Assembly: GCF_011044255.1 (NCBI RefSeq)
Contig: NZ_CP049107.1
Coordinates: 3,717,001 to 3,781,000, forward strand
DNA: 64,000 nucleotides
Source: Rhizorhabdus phycosphaerae
GTDB lineage: Bacteria > Pseudomonadota > Alphaproteobacteria > Sphingomonadales > Sphingomonadaceae
Reading direction: 5' to 3'
Made by a program: the position numbers and the translations under genes. Numbering within the stretch: position 1 is the stretch's first letter; every line of letters begins with the position of its first letter. Shown piece by piece: positions 2,643-10,335 of this stretch. The notes below the pieces were generated by a model that did not search any database, had not been told where the DNA came from, and worked only from the letters and a program-made list of their open reading frames with translations.

Positions 2643-4253
2643 TCAGGCCCGGCCGCGCAGCTTCCCGTAGAGACCCGCGTCGGACAGGATCACCTGCGCC
2701 GCATTGTGACCGGGGGCACCCGTCACGCCGCCGCCCGGATGGGTGCCCGCGCCGCACATGTAGAGCCCCTTCAACGGCCCGCGATAGCCGCCATGGCCCA
2801 GCACCGGGCGCGCCGCCCACAGCTGGTCGAGCGACATATTGCCGTGCATGATGTCCCCGCCGATGAGCCCGAACTTACGTTCGAGGTCGAGCGGCGAGTG
2901 GATCTGCCGGCCGACGACCGAGGCCTTGAAGCCTGGCGCATAGGCCTCGACCGTGTCGATGATCAGGTCGGCAGCGGCCTCCCGCTCGTCGTCCCAGCTG
3001 CGCCCGTCTGGCAGCACGGGGGCGAATTGCTGGCAGAACAGGCTCGCGACATGCTGTCCGGGCGGGGCGAGGCTGTCGTCGACGATCGAGGGAATCAGCA
3101 TCTCGACGATCGGCTGCTTCGACATGCCGTGCAGCTTCGCGTCGAGGAAGGCGCGGTCCATATAGTCGAGCGTCGGCGCGATGATGATGCCCGATTCCAG
3201 ATGCTGGCCCGGTCCCGGCAGGCAGGTAAAGTTCGGCAGTTCCGACAGGGCGACGTTCATGCGGAAGGTTCCCGATCCCGCCTTGAACGAGCGGATGCGG
3301 CGCAGGAAATCGTCGGGCAGGTCGGTCGGGTCGATCAGCCGCTCGTAGAGCAGCTTCGGGCCGACATTACCGATCACGCGCCGGCCGAAGACTTCCTCGC
3401 CGCTTTCAAGGCGCACGCCGACCGCACGGTCGCCGTCGACCAGCACCTGCGCGACCGGCGCCTCCAGGCTGATCTCGACGCCGAGATCACGGCAGACCTT
3501 CGCCATGATCGAGGTGATCTTGCCCATCCCCCCGACGCTGTGGCCCCAGGCGCCCTTCTTGCCGTTCACCTCGCCGAAGACGTGGTGAAGCAGGACATAG
3601 GCCGAGCCCGGCGTGTCGGGGCTGGCATAGTTCCCGACGACCGCGTCGAAGCCGAAGGCAGCCTTGACCGCCTCGCTCTCGAACCAGCCGTCGAGGACGG
3701 TGCGCGCGCTTTTCGTGAACAGGTCCAGGACGTCGCGCTGGCGTTCGAGCGGCAGGCGCGCGAGCGGAAGGCCCTGACGCGCGCCGGCCATCAGCGCGTC
3801 GATGCCGTCGCCGACATTGGGCGGCGCGTGCATAGCGAGATCGCGCAACACGTCGGCGACGCCTTCGAGCGCGTCATAATAGGCCGGCAGCACCTCGGCA
3901 TCATGGGCGCTGAACTTGCGGAACTCGGCTTGGGTGCGCTCCAGCCCGCCGCCCAGCAGCAGATAGCCGCCATCGGGCTGCGGCAGGAAGTTGGACACCG
4001 GCCGCTCGATCACGCGATAGCCATGATCGGCGAGGCGCATGTCGGCGATCACCTTGGGGTTGAGCAGGCTGACCGTGTAGCTCGCCACCGAATTGCGGAA
4101 GCCGGGGTGGAACTCCTCGGTCACCGCCGCGCCGCCGACGACGTCGCGCCGTTCGAGCACGCGCACCTTGTGGCCGGCGCGGGCGAGGTAGAAGGCGCAG
4201 ACGAGGCCGTTATGGCCGCCGCCGATGATCACGGCATCATAATGGGTCGACAT
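2643..4253 (-). CDS. FAD-dependent oxidoreductase, phytoene desaturase/PYROXD2-like
   Basis: A 536-residue flavoprotein. The N-terminus carries the dinucleotide-binding fingerprint DAVIIGGGHNGLVCAFYLAR (residues 6-25), followed by an acidic-ended second strand (VRVLERRDVVGGAAVTEEF). The C-terminus has the CrtI-type motif GAGTHPGGGVTGAPGHNAA that closes the FAD pocket. The family includes carotenoid desaturases and PYROXD2, but most soil-bacterial members have no known substrate. The start was placed at MSTHYDAV because GGGGGAAAGCG precedes it; longer frames would run toward the upstream gene. It lies 31 bases downstream of the Rieske oxygenase gene on the same strand, so the two probably act on one compound. 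No carotenoid genes are nearby, so a carotenoid role is unlikely. Confidence 0.85.
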   Translation of the reverse strand: MSTHYDAVIIGGGHNGLVCAFYLARAGHKVRVLERRDVVGGAAVTEEFHPGFRNSVASYTVSLLNPKVIADMRLADHGYRVIERPVSNFLPQPDGGYLLLGGGLERTQAEFRKFSAHDAEVLPAYYDALEGVADVLRDLAMHAPPNVGDGIDALMAGARQGLPLARLPLERQRDVLDLFTKSARTVLDGWFESEAVKAAFGFDAVVGNYASPDTPGSAYVLLHHVFGEVNGKKGAWGHSVGGMGKITSIMAKVCRDLGVEISLEAPVAQVLVDGDRAVGVRLESGEEVFGRRVIGNVGPKLLYERLIDPTDLPDDFLRRIRSFKAGSGTFRMNVALSELPNFTCLPGPGQHLESGIIIAPTLDYMDRAFLDAKLHGMSKQPIVEMLIPSIVDDSLAPPGQHVASLFCQQFAPVLPDGRSWDDEREAAADLIIDTVEAYAPGFKASVVGRQIHSPLDLERKFGLIGGDIMHGNMSLDQLWAARPVLGHGGYRGPLKGLYMCGAGTHPGGGVTGAPGHNAAQVILSDAGLYGKLRGRA

Positions 4254-4284
4254 CGCTTTCCCCCTTGTCCTCGATCTCTGATTT

Positions 4285-5466
4285 CTAGCCCTGCGCGTGC
4301 GGGCGCCGGCTCCAGCCGGGTGCCGGTGCATGGTGCAGGCGGGCTTCGGGGATCAGGCCCCGCATCTTCCGGCAGAAATTGCGCAGCGCCACCTCGGTCT
4401 CCGACAGCGGCCCGACGGTGAAGCTCTTCGACGCCATCCCGTCCTGCACCCGCTTGATCAGCCAGGTGTCTTCGCTGTTCACCTGCCGGTTGATGCGCCA
4501 GTTGAGATAGCGGGCGGCCTTCATCTCGCGCCGGTCGTCGGGCACCGCATAGGCGATCTCGCGGATCAGCGTCTCGGTCGGGGAGACCGGCAGCCACTGC
4601 ATGAAGTCGACCTGGTCCGGATAAATGTCGAAGGCGAAGTTCGGCCACAGCTTGAAATAGGTCCACAGCCGCTTGCGGTCTTCGGGCAGGTGCGGAACGT
4701 CGGGCAGGATCGCCTGATAGGCGCGCTCCGAGGGGTTGTTCGACAGGCGGTCGCGGATGGGTGCTGCCATCTTGTCGACATGCTCCATCGCCTCGACCGT
4801 ATAGCCATTGCTCATCAGCCGGGTGAGCCCCGGATGGGCGACGACGATGTGCAGTCCGTCCGAATAATTGTCGCCGACATTCTTCCAGTTCACGTCGCGC
4901 GGGCGCAGCGTCACCCGGCCGAAGGCGCGCATGTCGGCGAAGCGATAGGGCTCCACCTCGGCCGCATAAGGCTGCATCATCTCGGCCACCGCAGGGCCGC
5001 CATCATCCTCCAGTCGCACGAAGATGAAGCTCTGCCAGATCTCGACCTGAACCGGCACCAGGCCGTGCGCCGCGCGGTCCATGCCGCCATAGGTCTGCGA
5101 CAGCGGCAGGCCGGTCAGCGCGCCTCTGAGATCGTAACTCCACGCATGATAGGGGCAGGTCAGCCGGCTTGCGCAGCCCGAGGGGCCGTCGACCAGCCGC
5201 GCGCCGCGATGGCGACAGACATTGGTGAAGGCACGGACCACCCGGTCGTCGCCGCGCACGACGATGACGCTCTCGCCGATATAGTCGAGCGTGTGATAGT
5301 CGCCGACCTGCGGAATGTCGCTTTCGTGGCAGACGATCTGCCAGGACGGGCGGAAGACGCGATCGACCTCTGCCTGGAAAAAGTCCGGATCGGAATAGGT
5401 CCAGGCCGGCAGGCTCCAGCCCGCATCGGGATCGGACATCATGTCGGAACGAGGCTGCGTGGCCAT
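4285..5466 (-). CDS. Rieske non-haem iron oxygenase, alpha subunit
   Basis: A 393-residue ring-hydroxylating or N-demethylating oxygenase alpha subunit. The Rieske [2Fe-2S] ligands are CRHRG and, downstream, CPYHAW. The mononuclear iron site is visible as VGDNYSDGLHIVVAH (Asp, His, His), inside the SRPBCC-type catalytic domain. No beta subunit, ferredoxin or reductase gene is adjacent, so electrons must come from a partner elsewhere. It resembles the GbcA/carnitine-oxygenase branch as much as aromatic dioxygenases. The start was set at MATQPRSD because CAGGAG lies 7 bases upstream. The promoter region holds a perfect TetR-like operator shared with the divergent amidohydrolase. Confidence 0.88.
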   Translation of the reverse strand: MATQPRSDMMSDPDAGWSLPAWTYSDPDFFQAEVDRVFRPSWQIVCHESDIPQVGDYHTLDYIGESVIVVRGDDRVVRAFTNVCRHRGARLVDGPSGCASRLTCPYHAWSYDLRGALTGLPLSQTYGGMDRAAHGLVPVQVEIWQSFIFVRLEDDGGPAVAEMMQPYAAEVEPYRFADMRAFGRVTLRPRDVNWKNVGDNYSDGLHIVVAHPGLTRLMSNGYTVEAMEHVDKMAAPIRDRLSNNPSERAYQAILPDVPHLPEDRKRLWTYFKLWPNFAFDIYPDQVDFMQWLPVSPTETLIREIAYAVPDDRREMKAARYLNWRINRQVNSEDTWLIKRVQDGMASKSFTVGPLSETEVALRNFCRKMRGLIPEARLHHAPAPGWSRRPHAQG

Positions 5467-6892: not shown

Positions 6893-6938
6893 GCGGCGTT
6901 TGTGATCGCCACTCTGGAAATGGGGGCTCGTGCCAACG

Positions 6939-7310
6939 TCAGAGACGGGCGCATGCTTGTGTCAGACGGTCAAGCTCGCTGAACAGGTCTTCGTCCATCT
7001 TGCTGAAATTGAAGCAGGTCTTGCCTTGTTTGCGCTTGGAAAGCCCCGGCGAGATATCTGCAGCGATCTCAGGGTGCGCATAGAGTGGCATCAGGTGAAA
7101 GGCCACGTAACTCTTCTTGATCGTGACCGTACCGAACCAGCCAGGTCCTTTCGTCTTGGGGTCGATATCCGGTGTCCGCAGTTCCAGCGATCCTGGTTCG
7201 TCCTTCGTCACCGTCATAGACGGCGCGGCATCGAGCATGATCGCGCGCAGCCCTGCATAGATCGCCTCGAAACCGTCAGCCAATTGCCGGCCTTCCCGTG
7301 TCTCTCCCAC
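6939..7310 (-). CDS. Small cytosolic protein, DUF1801/YdhG-like
   Basis: A 123-residue protein with no signal or membrane segment. The block AFHLMPLYAHPEIAADISPG, then a Lys-rich stretch and KTCFNFSKMDEDLF, resembles the core of DUF1801-type small proteins, whose function is unknown. It lies 101 bases downstream of the DUF4132 gene on the same strand and could be read through from it, but the gap also allows its own promoter. The family name is from memory of the pattern and is tentative. Confidence 0.65.
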   Translation of the reverse strand: MGETREGRQLADGFEAIYAGLRAIMLDAAPSMTVTKDEPGSLELRTPDIDPKTKGPGWFGTVTIKKSYVAFHLMPLYAHPEIAADISPGLSKRKQGKTCFNFSKMDEDLFSELDRLTQACARL

Positions 7311-7411: not shown

Positions 7412-9901
7412 TCACAACTGCGCCAGGATCGTCCGATCCGTAATCTTGCTCTCGTCGACCAGCAGGAAGGCCTTGCTGAGGATGATGGACACGAGGCTGT
7501 CGCCGGTGAAGGGGAGTTTGATCGTCTCGCTGTGCTTCCCCGGACGGCCCGGAACGATGCAGAGATAGCGTTTGCTCGGCAGGATCTGGATGTTGGCCGA
7601 TCCGAAGTGGACCGCGTAGCTGTGCCGCTGTCCCTGCACGATCAGAGCCTTGTCGGTCACCTCCAGCCGGTCGGCGATCGCCAGCTTCGGCACGATGGCG
7701 GCGATCAGCGTCCGTCGGGTCTCGGCGCTCTGACCGAGCTCGCCAAAGGCCCAGCTGCGCCAATAGTCGCCGAACCGGCCATCCGGTCCGCCGTCGGTCC
7801 AGGCCGGATCATTGGCCACGCTGGTGACGGAGACGAACAGGTCGACATCGCGCAGCATCTCCGAAAAGATGATCGGCGGCACCGTCTCCAGCGAAACCGC
7901 CCGGCCTTCATTGTCGAGGAAACGGATCCGGTCGGTCGTGAGATGCAGCGGCACATAGGCCGCGCTCCTCTGCCCGTCGTGAACGGGGTCGACATAATAT
8001 TCGATATGAATCCGATGATGCGGCACGGGGCGGGTGGGGATGCTGTCGCTGTCCCAGCCGCCAAGAAAATCGAACGACCACCCGCGGGCGTGGCACAGCG
8101 CGCGGAACTGATGCTGGCGCAATATATGCGCCGCGAAGCGGTTGGAATAGGTGTCGGTGCTGCGCTCGGCATCGGTCAGGACGTAGATTTCGCGATGCGC
8201 CTGCTTGATCGGCTGCGTCAGGTCGAGCGCGACGATGCGATCGCGCCAGGCCAGCACGTCTTCGGGATCGCTGTCGAGCGGGTGCCAGAGCCGCACCGTC
8301 CCGGCTGCAGGGATCGGAGTGACGCCACTGAGCGTCAGCAGGCAATCGCCTTGCGGCATGGCGTCGAACGCGCCATCCGGCCCTTCGAAACGCCAGATCA
8401 GTGCATGCGCCACCTGTCGCCGCAGCGGGTGATCGAGAAAGATCCGGCGCCACGTCGAGGCATCCCAGTGCCGATCCTCCAGCCAGGACTGTTCCAGCCG
8501 CAATGCCTGGGCGGCGCGGGCCGCTTCGATGTCCTTCGCGGCCTGCCGGATCGATGTCAGTTCTGCCTTATGGTCGCGCTGGACGGCAGCGGGCACTGTT
8601 TTCAGGGAGCGCTTGTCCTCGGTCTGCCAGCGGATCTCGACGTCTGCTGCGTCGACGACGATGCTCGCTGTGAACTCGCCCAGCCTGTGGGTCGACATTC
8701 CATCGCGCGCCAGCCCGAACGTAGGCAGCGCGCCCTCTTCGAGATCGGCCAGGCTGCGACCGAGCCGTCCGGCCATGGTCGTAAGGAGTTCGTCGAGCAG
8801 CTTGCTAGTCGAAGGGAGCTTGAGCCGGGTCCGCAGGCGAAACAGTTCGGCCGCCGCTGCGTCGACGTCCGCGCTTGCCGATAGCGCCCAGAGCGCCGCA
8901 TTGCCGAGCTTGACCGAACGTGCACCGACGTCTGGGACCTTGCGGAAGCAACGCTCGGCAAAGCGCCCTACGGCGCCGGTGAGACCGGGCTGGACCCATG
9001 CCGAGGCCAGCCAGACAAGTCCCTTGAGGATATCGAGGCTGAGGTCGACTTTGGCTGGATCGGGGGTTGTGGCTTCCATCCATGCGACCAGCTGCGCGGC
9101 GACCACGGCTTCGCCGATGGCGTCGACCAGTTGCTGTCCCCCCGCCACCCATTTCGAGGCGGGCCTGCTCTTGTCGCCCGCGCCGGCGGCATAAGCGAGC
9201 AGCGCCCGCCATGCGTCGCGATCGGTCGCGTCGAGCGTCGCAAGCCAGGGCGCGAGCGATTGTGCGAAGGGACCTGGCGGAAGTGCGCGCCGATTGCCCA
9301 GATCGGGCTCGAGCAGCGCCTTCACGCGCGCGAGGAGCTTCTTGTCGAATTCGCCGCTGGGCTGGTTGGCGAGGAGGGGCGTCAGCCGCCGCCGGAGCTT
9401 TTCGAGCGCGCCTCGCAGGGCGCCCTCGGGGGCTTGTCCGTCCAGCAACCGCTCTGCCGCACCGATCATGGAGAGTCCGGCCATGCCATATTGAAGATGG
9501 GGTTGCTCGGCCCAGGCCCTGATCGGACCGGCGAGCTGATCGCCGGTGAAGGGCAGCTTCTTCCGGAAGAGCTGCGACGCGATCGTTCTTCGCGTTTCCT
9601 CGATTGTTCCGCCGTCGAGGCCGCTATGGCGTTTGTGTATGACGGCGTTCAGCGCAACGGCGACCTGCATGGCCTCGGGGCCATTCTTCAGCCGCTCCCA
9701 AGGCCCGATGCCGCCGAGCCTTACCGCCCCGCCCCTGTAGCGCTGATCCCTGGCCACCTCAGCACAGATCGCCGTGATCACGCGGTGCACTTCGGGCGCT
9801 GAGGGGGGGATCGGCCCCGACGCGTGCTCTGCGATATTAGTGTCCGTTGCTCTTTCGCGGATTTTGAACAGCTCCGCAATGCGACCGATCAGTCCGGTCA
9901 T
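7412..9901 (-). CDS. DUF4132-domain protein (MolR/YehI-like)
   Basis: An 829-residue cytosolic protein. The N-terminal half (about 1-440) is alpha-helical and repeat-like, with no recognised catalytic motif. The DUF4132 core spans roughly 490-620: ALIWRFEGPDGAF at 500, RLWHPLDSD, IKQAHREIYVLTDAE, TYSNRFAAHILRQHQFRALC, then GW. A conserved C-terminal block follows at about 760-829 (AVHFGSANIQI, YLCIVPGR, LPFTGDS, SIILSKAFLL). DUF4132 occurs in E. coli MolR/YehI and in many soil bacteria, and its biochemical role is not established. The start codon overlaps the stop of the upstream Gly-Gly-tailed protein by 4 bases (ATGA), so the two are made together. There is no WGR domain in this copy. Confidence 0.8.
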   Translation of the reverse strand: MTGLIGRIAELFKIRERATDTNIAEHASGPIPPSAPEVHRVITAICAEVARDQRYRGGAVRLGGIGPWERLKNGPEAMQVAVALNAVIHKRHSGLDGGTIEETRRTIASQLFRKKLPFTGDQLAGPIRAWAEQPHLQYGMAGLSMIGAAERLLDGQAPEGALRGALEKLRRRLTPLLANQPSGEFDKKLLARVKALLEPDLGNRRALPPGPFAQSLAPWLATLDATDRDAWRALLAYAAGAGDKSRPASKWVAGGQQLVDAIGEAVVAAQLVAWMEATTPDPAKVDLSLDILKGLVWLASAWVQPGLTGAVGRFAERCFRKVPDVGARSVKLGNAALWALSASADVDAAAAELFRLRTRLKLPSTSKLLDELLTTMAGRLGRSLADLEEGALPTFGLARDGMSTHRLGEFTASIVVDAADVEIRWQTEDKRSLKTVPAAVQRDHKAELTSIRQAAKDIEAARAAQALRLEQSWLEDRHWDASTWRRIFLDHPLRRQVAHALIWRFEGPDGAFDAMPQGDCLLTLSGVTPIPAAGTVRLWHPLDSDPEDVLAWRDRIVALDLTQPIKQAHREIYVLTDAERSTDTYSNRFAAHILRQHQFRALCHARGWSFDFLGGWDSDSIPTRPVPHHRIHIEYYVDPVHDGQRSAAYVPLHLTTDRIRFLDNEGRAVSLETVPPIIFSEMLRDVDLFVSVTSVANDPAWTDGGPDGRFGDYWRSWAFGELGQSAETRRTLIAAIVPKLAIADRLEVTDKALIVQGQRHSYAVHFGSANIQILPSKRYLCIVPGRPGKHSETIKLPFTGDSLVSIILSKAFLLVDESKITDRTILAQL

Positions 9902-10335
9902 CCGCCGATCAGCGGGGTCAGATAAAGGAACACCGCCTCGCTCTCCGGCGTGACGACGATCGCCTCGTCGAGGTCGCAGACCTGGCGCTCGTCGACCAGC
10001 AGGACGAACTGGTTTCGTCCGAACGCATCGATCGCGCGCTTATATTCGATCGCCTCATCGAAGCGGTGGGCACGGAAGGAGCCGGCGTGAAAGGAGGCAA
10101 GCCCGCCTTCGGGCGTGTCGTCGCGCAGCGGGATCAGGAAGGATCGCGCGCGTGCATGATCGGCGGCGACCTTGATGCGCTTGCGATTGGCGACGCTTAC
10201 CTCGTCGGCCACGCGCCTGCGGATCAGTTCGCGCGCGGTAATGCGCTCCGTCGCGAGGCGCAGCTCGAGCGCGGGCCTGCGCTCCCCCGTTGCGGCGCCG
10301 AAGCACTCGTCGACGATCTTCAAAACTGGCGGCAT
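9898..10335 (-). CDS. Putative ubiquitin-like (beta-grasp) protein with C-terminal Gly-Gly, coupled to DUF4132
   Basis: A 145-residue protein ending VFLYLTPLIGG. The last 40 residues follow the MoaD/ThiS/ubiquitin-like pattern: hydrophobic strand (QFVLLVDER), turn with LDEAIVV, acidic ESEAV, strand and exposed di-glycine. The N-terminus fits the first hairpin and helix of a beta-grasp fold (LELRLATERITARELIRRRV), with an insertion of about 60 residues in between. MoaD and ThiS use such tails for adenylation by an E1-like enzyme and sulfur transfer; ubiquitin uses them for conjugation. No E1-like, JAB or E2-like gene is next to it. The ATG at 10335 was chosen because CGGGAG lies 8 bases upstream; the GTG at 10341 is too close to it. 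I judge the fold likely and the conjugation chemistry unproven. Confidence 0.7.
   Translation of the reverse strand: MPPVLKIVDECFGAATGERRPALELRLATERITARELIRRRVADEVSVANRKRIKVAADHARARSFLIPLRDDTPEGGLASFHAGSFRAHRFDEAIEYKRAIDAFGRNQFVLLVDERQVCDLDEAIVVTPESEAVFLYLTPLIGG

Follow-up and report, generated by a model that had tools for sequence, protein, structure and literature searches.

A predicted beta-grasp protein with a conserved Gly-Gly tail is encoded beside DUF4132-DUF7737 proteins across bacterial phyla

Introduction

In the MoaD–MoaE system, a small beta-grasp carrier with a free Gly-Gly end is made with a larger partner. Here we describe a two-gene locus of similar outline in a 64,000-nt stretch of the Rhizorhabdus phycosphaerae genome (GCF_011044255.1, NZ_CP049107.1, positions 3,717,001–3,781,000; this whole stretch is the window, and its own coordinates are used below), in which the gene for a 145-residue protein ending in Gly-Gly overlaps that of an 829-residue DUF4132 protein. 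The likeness to MoaD lies in the predicted fold, the free Gly-Gly end and the larger partner. The small protein differs in an insert of ~45 residues between helix 1 and strand 3 and in giving no Pfam ThiS match, and its partner is a DUF4132-DUF7737 protein, not MoaE, in a genome that has a separate MoaD.

The closest described relative is SEP068184 (DRA0165, DR_A0165) of Deinococcus radiodurans, a family member that ends in ALAGG and directly precedes a DUF4132 gene. DRA0165 is induced by gamma rays and peroxide, and its deletion gives higher peroxide survival with expression of DR_A0164 and DR_A0166 unchanged; it binds Trx1 in a pull-down, and its predicted structure resembles molybdopterin (MPT) synthase according to its authors (PMC9650054). 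It is stated there to be restricted to Deinococcus and to lack a radiation/desiccation response motif (RDRM), whereas we find a widespread family and an RDRM. The neighbouring DRA0166 rises after mitomycin C in an IrrE-dependent manner, with an RDRM site at −83 and strong induction upon DdrO depletion (PMC8533742).

Long DUF4132 proteins without DUF7737 form a second point of comparison. They share the DUF4132 domain, with HEAT-repeat matches in several, but DUF7737 is found in none of the nine scanned and their loci carry no small gene. E. coli MolR and YehI are presumably of this kind. Bacterial cGAS operons reportedly place ubiquitin-like proteins in small conserved gene groups. Such groups have also been described as prokaryotic ubiquitin-like operons (Iyer 2006, PMC1779556), which carry activating (E1) and conjugating (E2) enzymes and JAB proteins, whereas none of these was seen to recur beside the pair described here. 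In word checks, MolR, YehI and WGR are absent from the available text of PMC1779556 and from a second beta-grasp paper, and MolR and WGR from a conflict-system survey. The pair is not described in the literature searched, outside which most subscription papers and preprints lay; three papers in that literature name DUF4132, none mentions DUF7737 or DUF5724, and nothing in it joins beta-grasp and MolR.

Results

A small Gly-Gly gene overlaps a DUF4132-DUF7737 gene

The small gene (9898–10335, minus strand) encodes 145 residues from an ATG, or 147 from a GTG two codons further upstream, and the protein ends LTPLIGG, in agreement with an earlier sequence-only reading of this DNA; the terminal Gly-Gly codons occupy 9901–9906 (minus). 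Its stop codon TGA (9900–9898) shares the tetranucleotide ATGA (9898–9901, minus) with the start codon ATG (9901–9899) of an 829-residue open reading frame (ORF; 7412–9901, minus). This larger ORF matches PF13569 (DUF4132; E 1e-43, 149.8 bits) and PF24879 (DUF7737; E 5.8e-32, 110.2 bits), against curated cut-offs of 27. The overlap of a Gly-Gly gene with a DUF4132 gene, which that reading had noted, is confirmed, and the DUF7737 domain, which it did not name, is an addition to it. The small gene is single-copy in its own 4.33 Mb genome.

The Gly-Gly tail is conserved

Tail conservation was counted over 100 distinct C-terminal 60-mers of family members. GG stands at the stop in 98 of them, the remaining two ending in GS and IW. 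The penultimate residue is G in 99; L is found at −4 (98) and at −7 (97), F at −10 (97) and P at −5 (78), so that the tail follows the near-fixed pattern F-x-x-L-x-x-L-x-G-G. For comparison, three of 651 other ORFs from the window and loci L049–L128 end in GG; these controls were non-overlapping, at least 100 aa long and picked mechanically, and include some spurious frames.

A tail that ends exactly in GG is what an E1-activated carrier needs, and exceeds what a plain structural subunit needs. This bears on the possibility of non-covalent docking, in which the small protein would regulate the DUF4132 protein or form a structural subunit of it, with a Gly-Gly that fills a pocket and is never activated. 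The gene overlap suits a stoichiometric complex, and a module of two genes, near which no activating enzyme was seen repeatedly, is what docking would look like; a tail with a purely structural task has no need of a precise GG end, however, yet nearly all have one. We regard such docking as a serious possibility that is nonetheless on the unlikely side.

The small protein is predicted to adopt a MoaD/ubiquitin-type fold

The best AlphaFold2 model of the small protein, built with 67 aligned sequences, has a mean pLDDT of 82 and a pTM of 0.71 (the other four models, 72–75). The predicted order is strand, strand, long helix, insert, helix and four strands, with the insert and the tail less sure. 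Earlier, the beta-grasp pattern had been placed in the last 40 residues; the model bears out the fold and not the placement, as one beta-grasp domain spans the whole protein and is interrupted by an insert at about residues 50–93. The top Foldseek match is human MoaD (MOCS2A, 5mpo_B; E 0.022, probability 0.98), and no solved structure was matched at E 0.001 or better. Re-alignment to 5mpo_B, the best solved match, gives a Z of 9.4 across 80 residues at 3.5 Å, and ubiquitin (Z about 8), ISG15 and SAMP1 are among the next-best matches. All 50 fold matches listed are by title of the ubiquitin/MoaD type or bear such a domain; a Z near 8 can reflect a common arrangement, and the listed entries are of one kind by title. 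Staphylococcal superantigen-like proteins also appear in the Foldseek list, behind MoaD and mixed with ubiquitin-like entries.

The sequence link to MoaD/ThiS is weak. The small protein has no Pfam match, and PF02597 (ThiS) is not hit even with E allowed up to 10; NCBIfam, PADLOC and PHROG give nothing of weight, and no solved chain was found by sequence. Within the family, 5 of 67 members match PF02597 weakly (best E 0.0067). A profile comparison with 15 MoaD-type proteins brings the last 37 residues into register, GG on GG (E 0.0011, probability 20%). The small family has no profile in the libraries searched, and annotation therefore misses it.

The small gene is linked to DUF4132 genes in distant bacteria

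Scanning a genome collection with six DUF4132 sequences (alignment A2) and keeping the best 80 of 315 relatives yielded 67 loci that carry a small gene on the DUF4132 locus, upstream in 62 and downstream in five. The reversed order occurs in L066, L071, L073, L082 and L100, all planctomycetes, and retains the linkage. Paired hosts belong to Pseudomonadota, Planctomycetota, Actinomycetota, Cyanobacteriota, Melainabacteria, Chloroflexota, Acidobacteriota, Verrucomicrobiota, Bacteroidota, Armatimonadota, Myxococcota and SAR324, plus Deinococcota; many are metagenome bins, for which single phylum assignments may be wrong. Eleven of the 13 loci without a small gene come from genomes that have one elsewhere. 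In G869, G871, G872, G874, G875 and G877 the small gene adjoins a DUF4132 gene on another contig. Across 63 pairs the two genes overlap in 14, lie within 30 bp in 41 and are further apart in eight (some of them second copies), with start codons picked closest to the end of the small gene, which biases the gaps short. Two tandem DUF4132 genes at L090:2112–7289 share a single small gene. In G091 the DUF4132 gene occupies two frames (L007:6129–7985 and 7930–9384), through an assembly error or because the gene is broken.

Because the scan keeps the loci nearest to the window's DUF4132 type, 67/80 is not an unbiased rate, and genome samples were used instead. A single-sequence scan of the genome collection with the small protein returned no relative. 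Searching 147 genomes of the order directly gave matches in five, including its own. Relatives in G121 and G091 adjoin a DUF4132 gene; the matches in G114 and G134 lie inside longer frames at 23% identity and were not recovered by the family profile. DUF4132 occurs in four of the 147 genomes, three of which also have the small gene, while the fourth (G025) encodes a long protein without it. A class sample of 385 genomes, six with DUF4132, adds G313 and G422, whose upstream genes end in LQGG or LVGG. A five-member profile then found G532 (E 2e-22) and G701 (E 2e-20) in the phylum sample, both beside DUF4132; this recovery is a real test because neither was in the profile.

Among 398 Pseudomonadota genomes, three have the small gene and 11 have DUF4132, all three falling within the 11 (Fisher p 1.6e-5; 2/2 and p 5.7e-4 without its own genome, G000). 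Among 199 Planctomycetota genomes the small gene is present in 11, DUF4132 in 23 and both in 10 (p 5.5e-10; 9/10 and p 4.4e-9 without the sample centre G871), and in 10/10 the two lie on one contig within about 2.5 kb. The samples contain their own centres by construction, and the p-values ignore relatedness. The pairing exceeds chance, since relatives across phyla keep both the linkage and the tail; the linkage anticipated by the sequence-only reading thus recurs. Conversely, 8/11 DUF4132 genomes in Pseudomonadota and 13/23 in Planctomycetota lack the small gene, and DUF4132 as a whole therefore does not need the small protein.

In a DUF4132 tree, paired and unpaired rows do not form clades (18 changes against a shuffled mean of 19.5). 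The unpaired rows are mostly contig-end cuts, second copies in paired genomes or long-branched divergent proteins, and deep placement is unsure because of the long branches. The row L007_7858_9384 was labelled paired by hand, the small gene preceding the first half of that broken gene. Alignment A3 omits L053 (5′ end cut), L007, L018, L039, L129 and the duplicates L006, L019 and L038.

DUF7737 accompanies the paired DUF4132 proteins

The model of the 829-residue protein (mean pLDDT 86.6, pTM 0.68) begins with a helical repeat, while its C-terminal half is of mixed structure. Residues 34–385 (8747–9802, minus) are modelled as almost wholly helical, a predicted HEAT/armadillo-like solenoid; residues 431–608 (8078–8611, minus) form the DUF4132 domain, and residues 726–829 (7415–7726, minus) the DUF7737 domain. 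Fold matches are mostly armadillo/HEAT proteins at Z 7–10, weak for helical repeats, and the C-terminal half was barely probed because the helical residues fill the match list. A search by sequence found no solved DUF4132 structure, giving five weak matches to unrelated small proteins (best E 0.02).

Alignment A4 of paired proteins, used for this model, has invariant polar residues R553, E571 and Q598 in the DUF4132 domain together with R684, R729, Y762, D801 and D822. DUF7737 is present in 54 of its 55 rows; A4 holds one wrong-frame row (L105:2861–5239), with an end unlike all others, which is probably the one row lacking DUF4132 and DUF7737. Paired proteins from G701, L071 and D. radiodurans carry the domain as well. 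It was found in none of nine unpaired long DUF4132 proteins from eight genomes (L020, L021, L022, L040, L041, L043, L044, L047 and L048), of which mostly the C-terminal ~700 residues were scanned; L042, L045, L046 and two of the three proteins in L041 were left out. No small gene lies on the loci of these nine, six of the eight genomes having been searched whole and G477 and G497 at the locus only. In these sequences, DUF7737 thus appears to go with the DUF4132 proteins that have a small partner, as a correlation.

Two other roles were considered and set aside. An anti-phage defence system is not indicated: PADLOC profiles returned nothing convincing for either the window or the Deinococcus pair, the best hit being Csm2 (E 0.028) on a DUF4132 helix, and no PADLOC system covers the pair. 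One function-unassigned PHROGs family matches DUF4132, although no phage records do. The old name MolR hints at a role in molybdate metabolism, which finds no support; moeA and moeB are reported not to change (PMC8533742).

The Deinococcus pair belongs to the same family

In the D. radiodurans record NZ_OV024759.1, a 134-residue hypothetical protein ending TALAGG is encoded 2 bp before a 1626-residue DUF5724-DUF4132-DUF7737 protein, and the family profile detects it at E 2e-17. The record carries other locus tags. We equate the pair with DRA0165–DRA0166, because the papers put DUF4132 in DRA0166 and Trx1 at DRA0164, with the small gene in the middle. The arrangement recurs in D. ficus. The two papers disagree on the RDRM; the 20-base site of PMC8533742 is present exactly at L156:1783–1802, and the sequence therefore favours that paper over PMC9650054. 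Two YeeE/YedE genes and trxC precede the D. radiodurans pair (L156:208–1737), a possible sulfur-related neighbourhood; YeeE/YedE and trxC are not annotated beside the D. ficus pair. Upstream of the small gene in other loci, LexA-type boxes and RDRM-like sites are not enriched, so known boxes lend no support to a damage role outside Deinococcus.

The discoverers of DRA0165 proposed that it is a negative regulator that binds Trx1 and lowers antioxidant capacity. The Trx1 pull-down and the peroxide survival of the deletion strain, with DR_A0164 and DR_A0166 expression unchanged, speak for this (PMC9650054), as does the position of trxC just upstream of the D. radiodurans pair. No thioredoxin gene is annotated next to the D. 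ficus pair, however, and, Streptomyces synteny aside, any one neighbour family is limited to at most 5/81 loci, whereas DUF4132 recurs. Because thioredoxin genes do not recur and DUF4132 does, thioredoxin binding is unlikely to be the ancestral role, and we consider this explanation of the family very improbable.

Candidate activating enzymes seldom lie near the pair

In a set of 120 nearest-neighbour ORFs, no ThiF, JAB or UBC family was seen among the 25 commonest of 195 families, which limits any such family to at most three members. The set leaves out the window ORF 6906–7310 (plus strand) and 12 loci (10 from Streptomyces or near it, two near-duplicates); the ORFs were chosen mechanically, spurious ones included, and BLAST clusters miss diverged small genes. 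A 123-residue ORF without a Pfam match lies ~100 bp downstream of the pair on the same strand (6939–7310, minus); it showed no recurrence in the neighbour clusters, which did not include the window itself.

An E1 domain near the small gene was found only at L155, a Melainabacteria bin, in an E1 search: a MoeB/ThiF-rhodanese gene (3755–4891, plus) is convergent with, and overlaps, the small gene (4888–5328, minus), and the DUF4132 gene of that genome lies on another contig. With this exception, the absence of an adjacent E1 noted earlier holds. Far from the pair, the R. phycosphaerae genome encodes a MoaD ending FPPVTGG and a 355-residue protein that opens with a ThiS domain, and it gives one strong ThiF match, likewise distant. 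The neighbour of this MoaD is presumably MoaE, and the 355-residue protein, by eye, a ThiS-ThiG fusion. The small gene was not found linked to MoaE, ThiG, ThiF or MoeB; its partner is DUF4132, and an E1 accompanies it at L155 alone.

A further explanation is that the small protein is a protein modifier: a general E1 would activate its tail, which is then joined to target lysines, and the DUF4132-DUF7737 protein would ligate it, select the targets or cleave the product. Urm1, SAMP and TtuB share their E1 with sulfur transfer. The free GG end, the presence of ubiquitin, ISG15 and SAMP1 among the fold matches and the MoeB-rhodanese E1 that overlaps the small gene in one genome all speak for conjugation. 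No recurring E2, JAB or E1 linkage accompanies these, however, and the Deinococcus pull-downs report binding partners, not adducts, in the available text of PMC9650054. We consider a modifier improbable.

Discussion

The conserved free Gly-Gly, the MoaD-like fold and one faithful large partner argue for a carrier–enzyme pair. Our preferred reading, to which we give about an even chance, is that the small protein acts as a carrier for the DUF4132-DUF7737 enzyme alone and inserts its tail there, as in MoaD/MoaE, with activation by an E1. The two genes would then form a dedicated two-protein module, in which the small protein is a carrier of the MoaD/ThiS/ubiquitin type and its free C-terminal Gly-Gly the working end. 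The globular face may dock onto the large protein, with DUF7737 as the candidate dock, and the tail may enter a conserved polar pocket of the DUF4132/DUF7737 half, like the MoaD tail in MoaE. The tail would probably be adenylated first by a general MoeB/ThiF-type E1 encoded elsewhere, and the outcome may be a thiocarboxylate, which we slightly favour, or a tail activated so that it can be passed to an amine. In at least Deinococcus, the module would serve oxidative or DNA-damage stress. The present evidence does not separate sulfur transfer, conjugation and pure docking.

Several observations weigh against a carrier–enzyme pair. Genes for E1, E2 or JAB proteins were not seen to recur next to the two genes, and the MoeB-rhodanese neighbour at L155 could be chance. 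The location of the polar pocket is a guess from conservation. The tail is altered in the Sandarakinorhabdus cyanobacteriorum member, which ends in GS, and in a second family member of G874 (L144, 185–640), which continues beyond the glycine, ending GSIW, and lacks a DUF4132 gene within the short stretch examined. Linkage is incomplete in both directions: the L102 and L117 genomes yielded no small gene, the small gene of G870 (L155) and that of G876 (L149) were not seen to adjoin a DUF4132 gene, and G939 (L200/L232) is the nearest to an orphan, having a family gene ending IQVAGG in a genome without a DUF4132 match. Likewise, the DUF7737 protein of L130 has no adjacent small gene, its replicon having another pair elsewhere, and for that of L131, an Acetobacter plasmid, no small gene was found on the plasmid, which was all that was searched.

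The published co-immunoprecipitation of DRA0165 also tells against partnership. It gave 157 proteins common to four tagged sets; the main text does not name DRA0166 among them, and names DR_A0166 twice only, on gene position and expression (PMC9650054). The words glycine, operon and ubiquitin are likewise absent from that main text. Two of the four sets had a C-terminal tag, which blocks the tail.

More broadly, and only tentatively, the DUF4132-DUF7737 proteins may be a new class of enzymes that take the activated Gly-Gly of their own carrier and, with only a shared house-keeping E1, transfer sulfur or attach the carrier to targets, thereby controlling oxidative and DNA-damage responses in a dozen phyla; we hold this to be less likely than not. 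DUF4132 has no settled function, and the available text of PMC8533742 gives no mechanism for it; a conserved Gly-Gly partner offers a concrete biochemical handle. The DRA0165-type peptide is not limited to Deinococcus. The damage-induced DUF4132 protein and the peptide that lowers peroxide resistance in Deinococcus are united in one operon and would be united under one testable mechanism. As the pair is induced by DNA damage in the radiation-resistant D. radiodurans, its role can be tested there.

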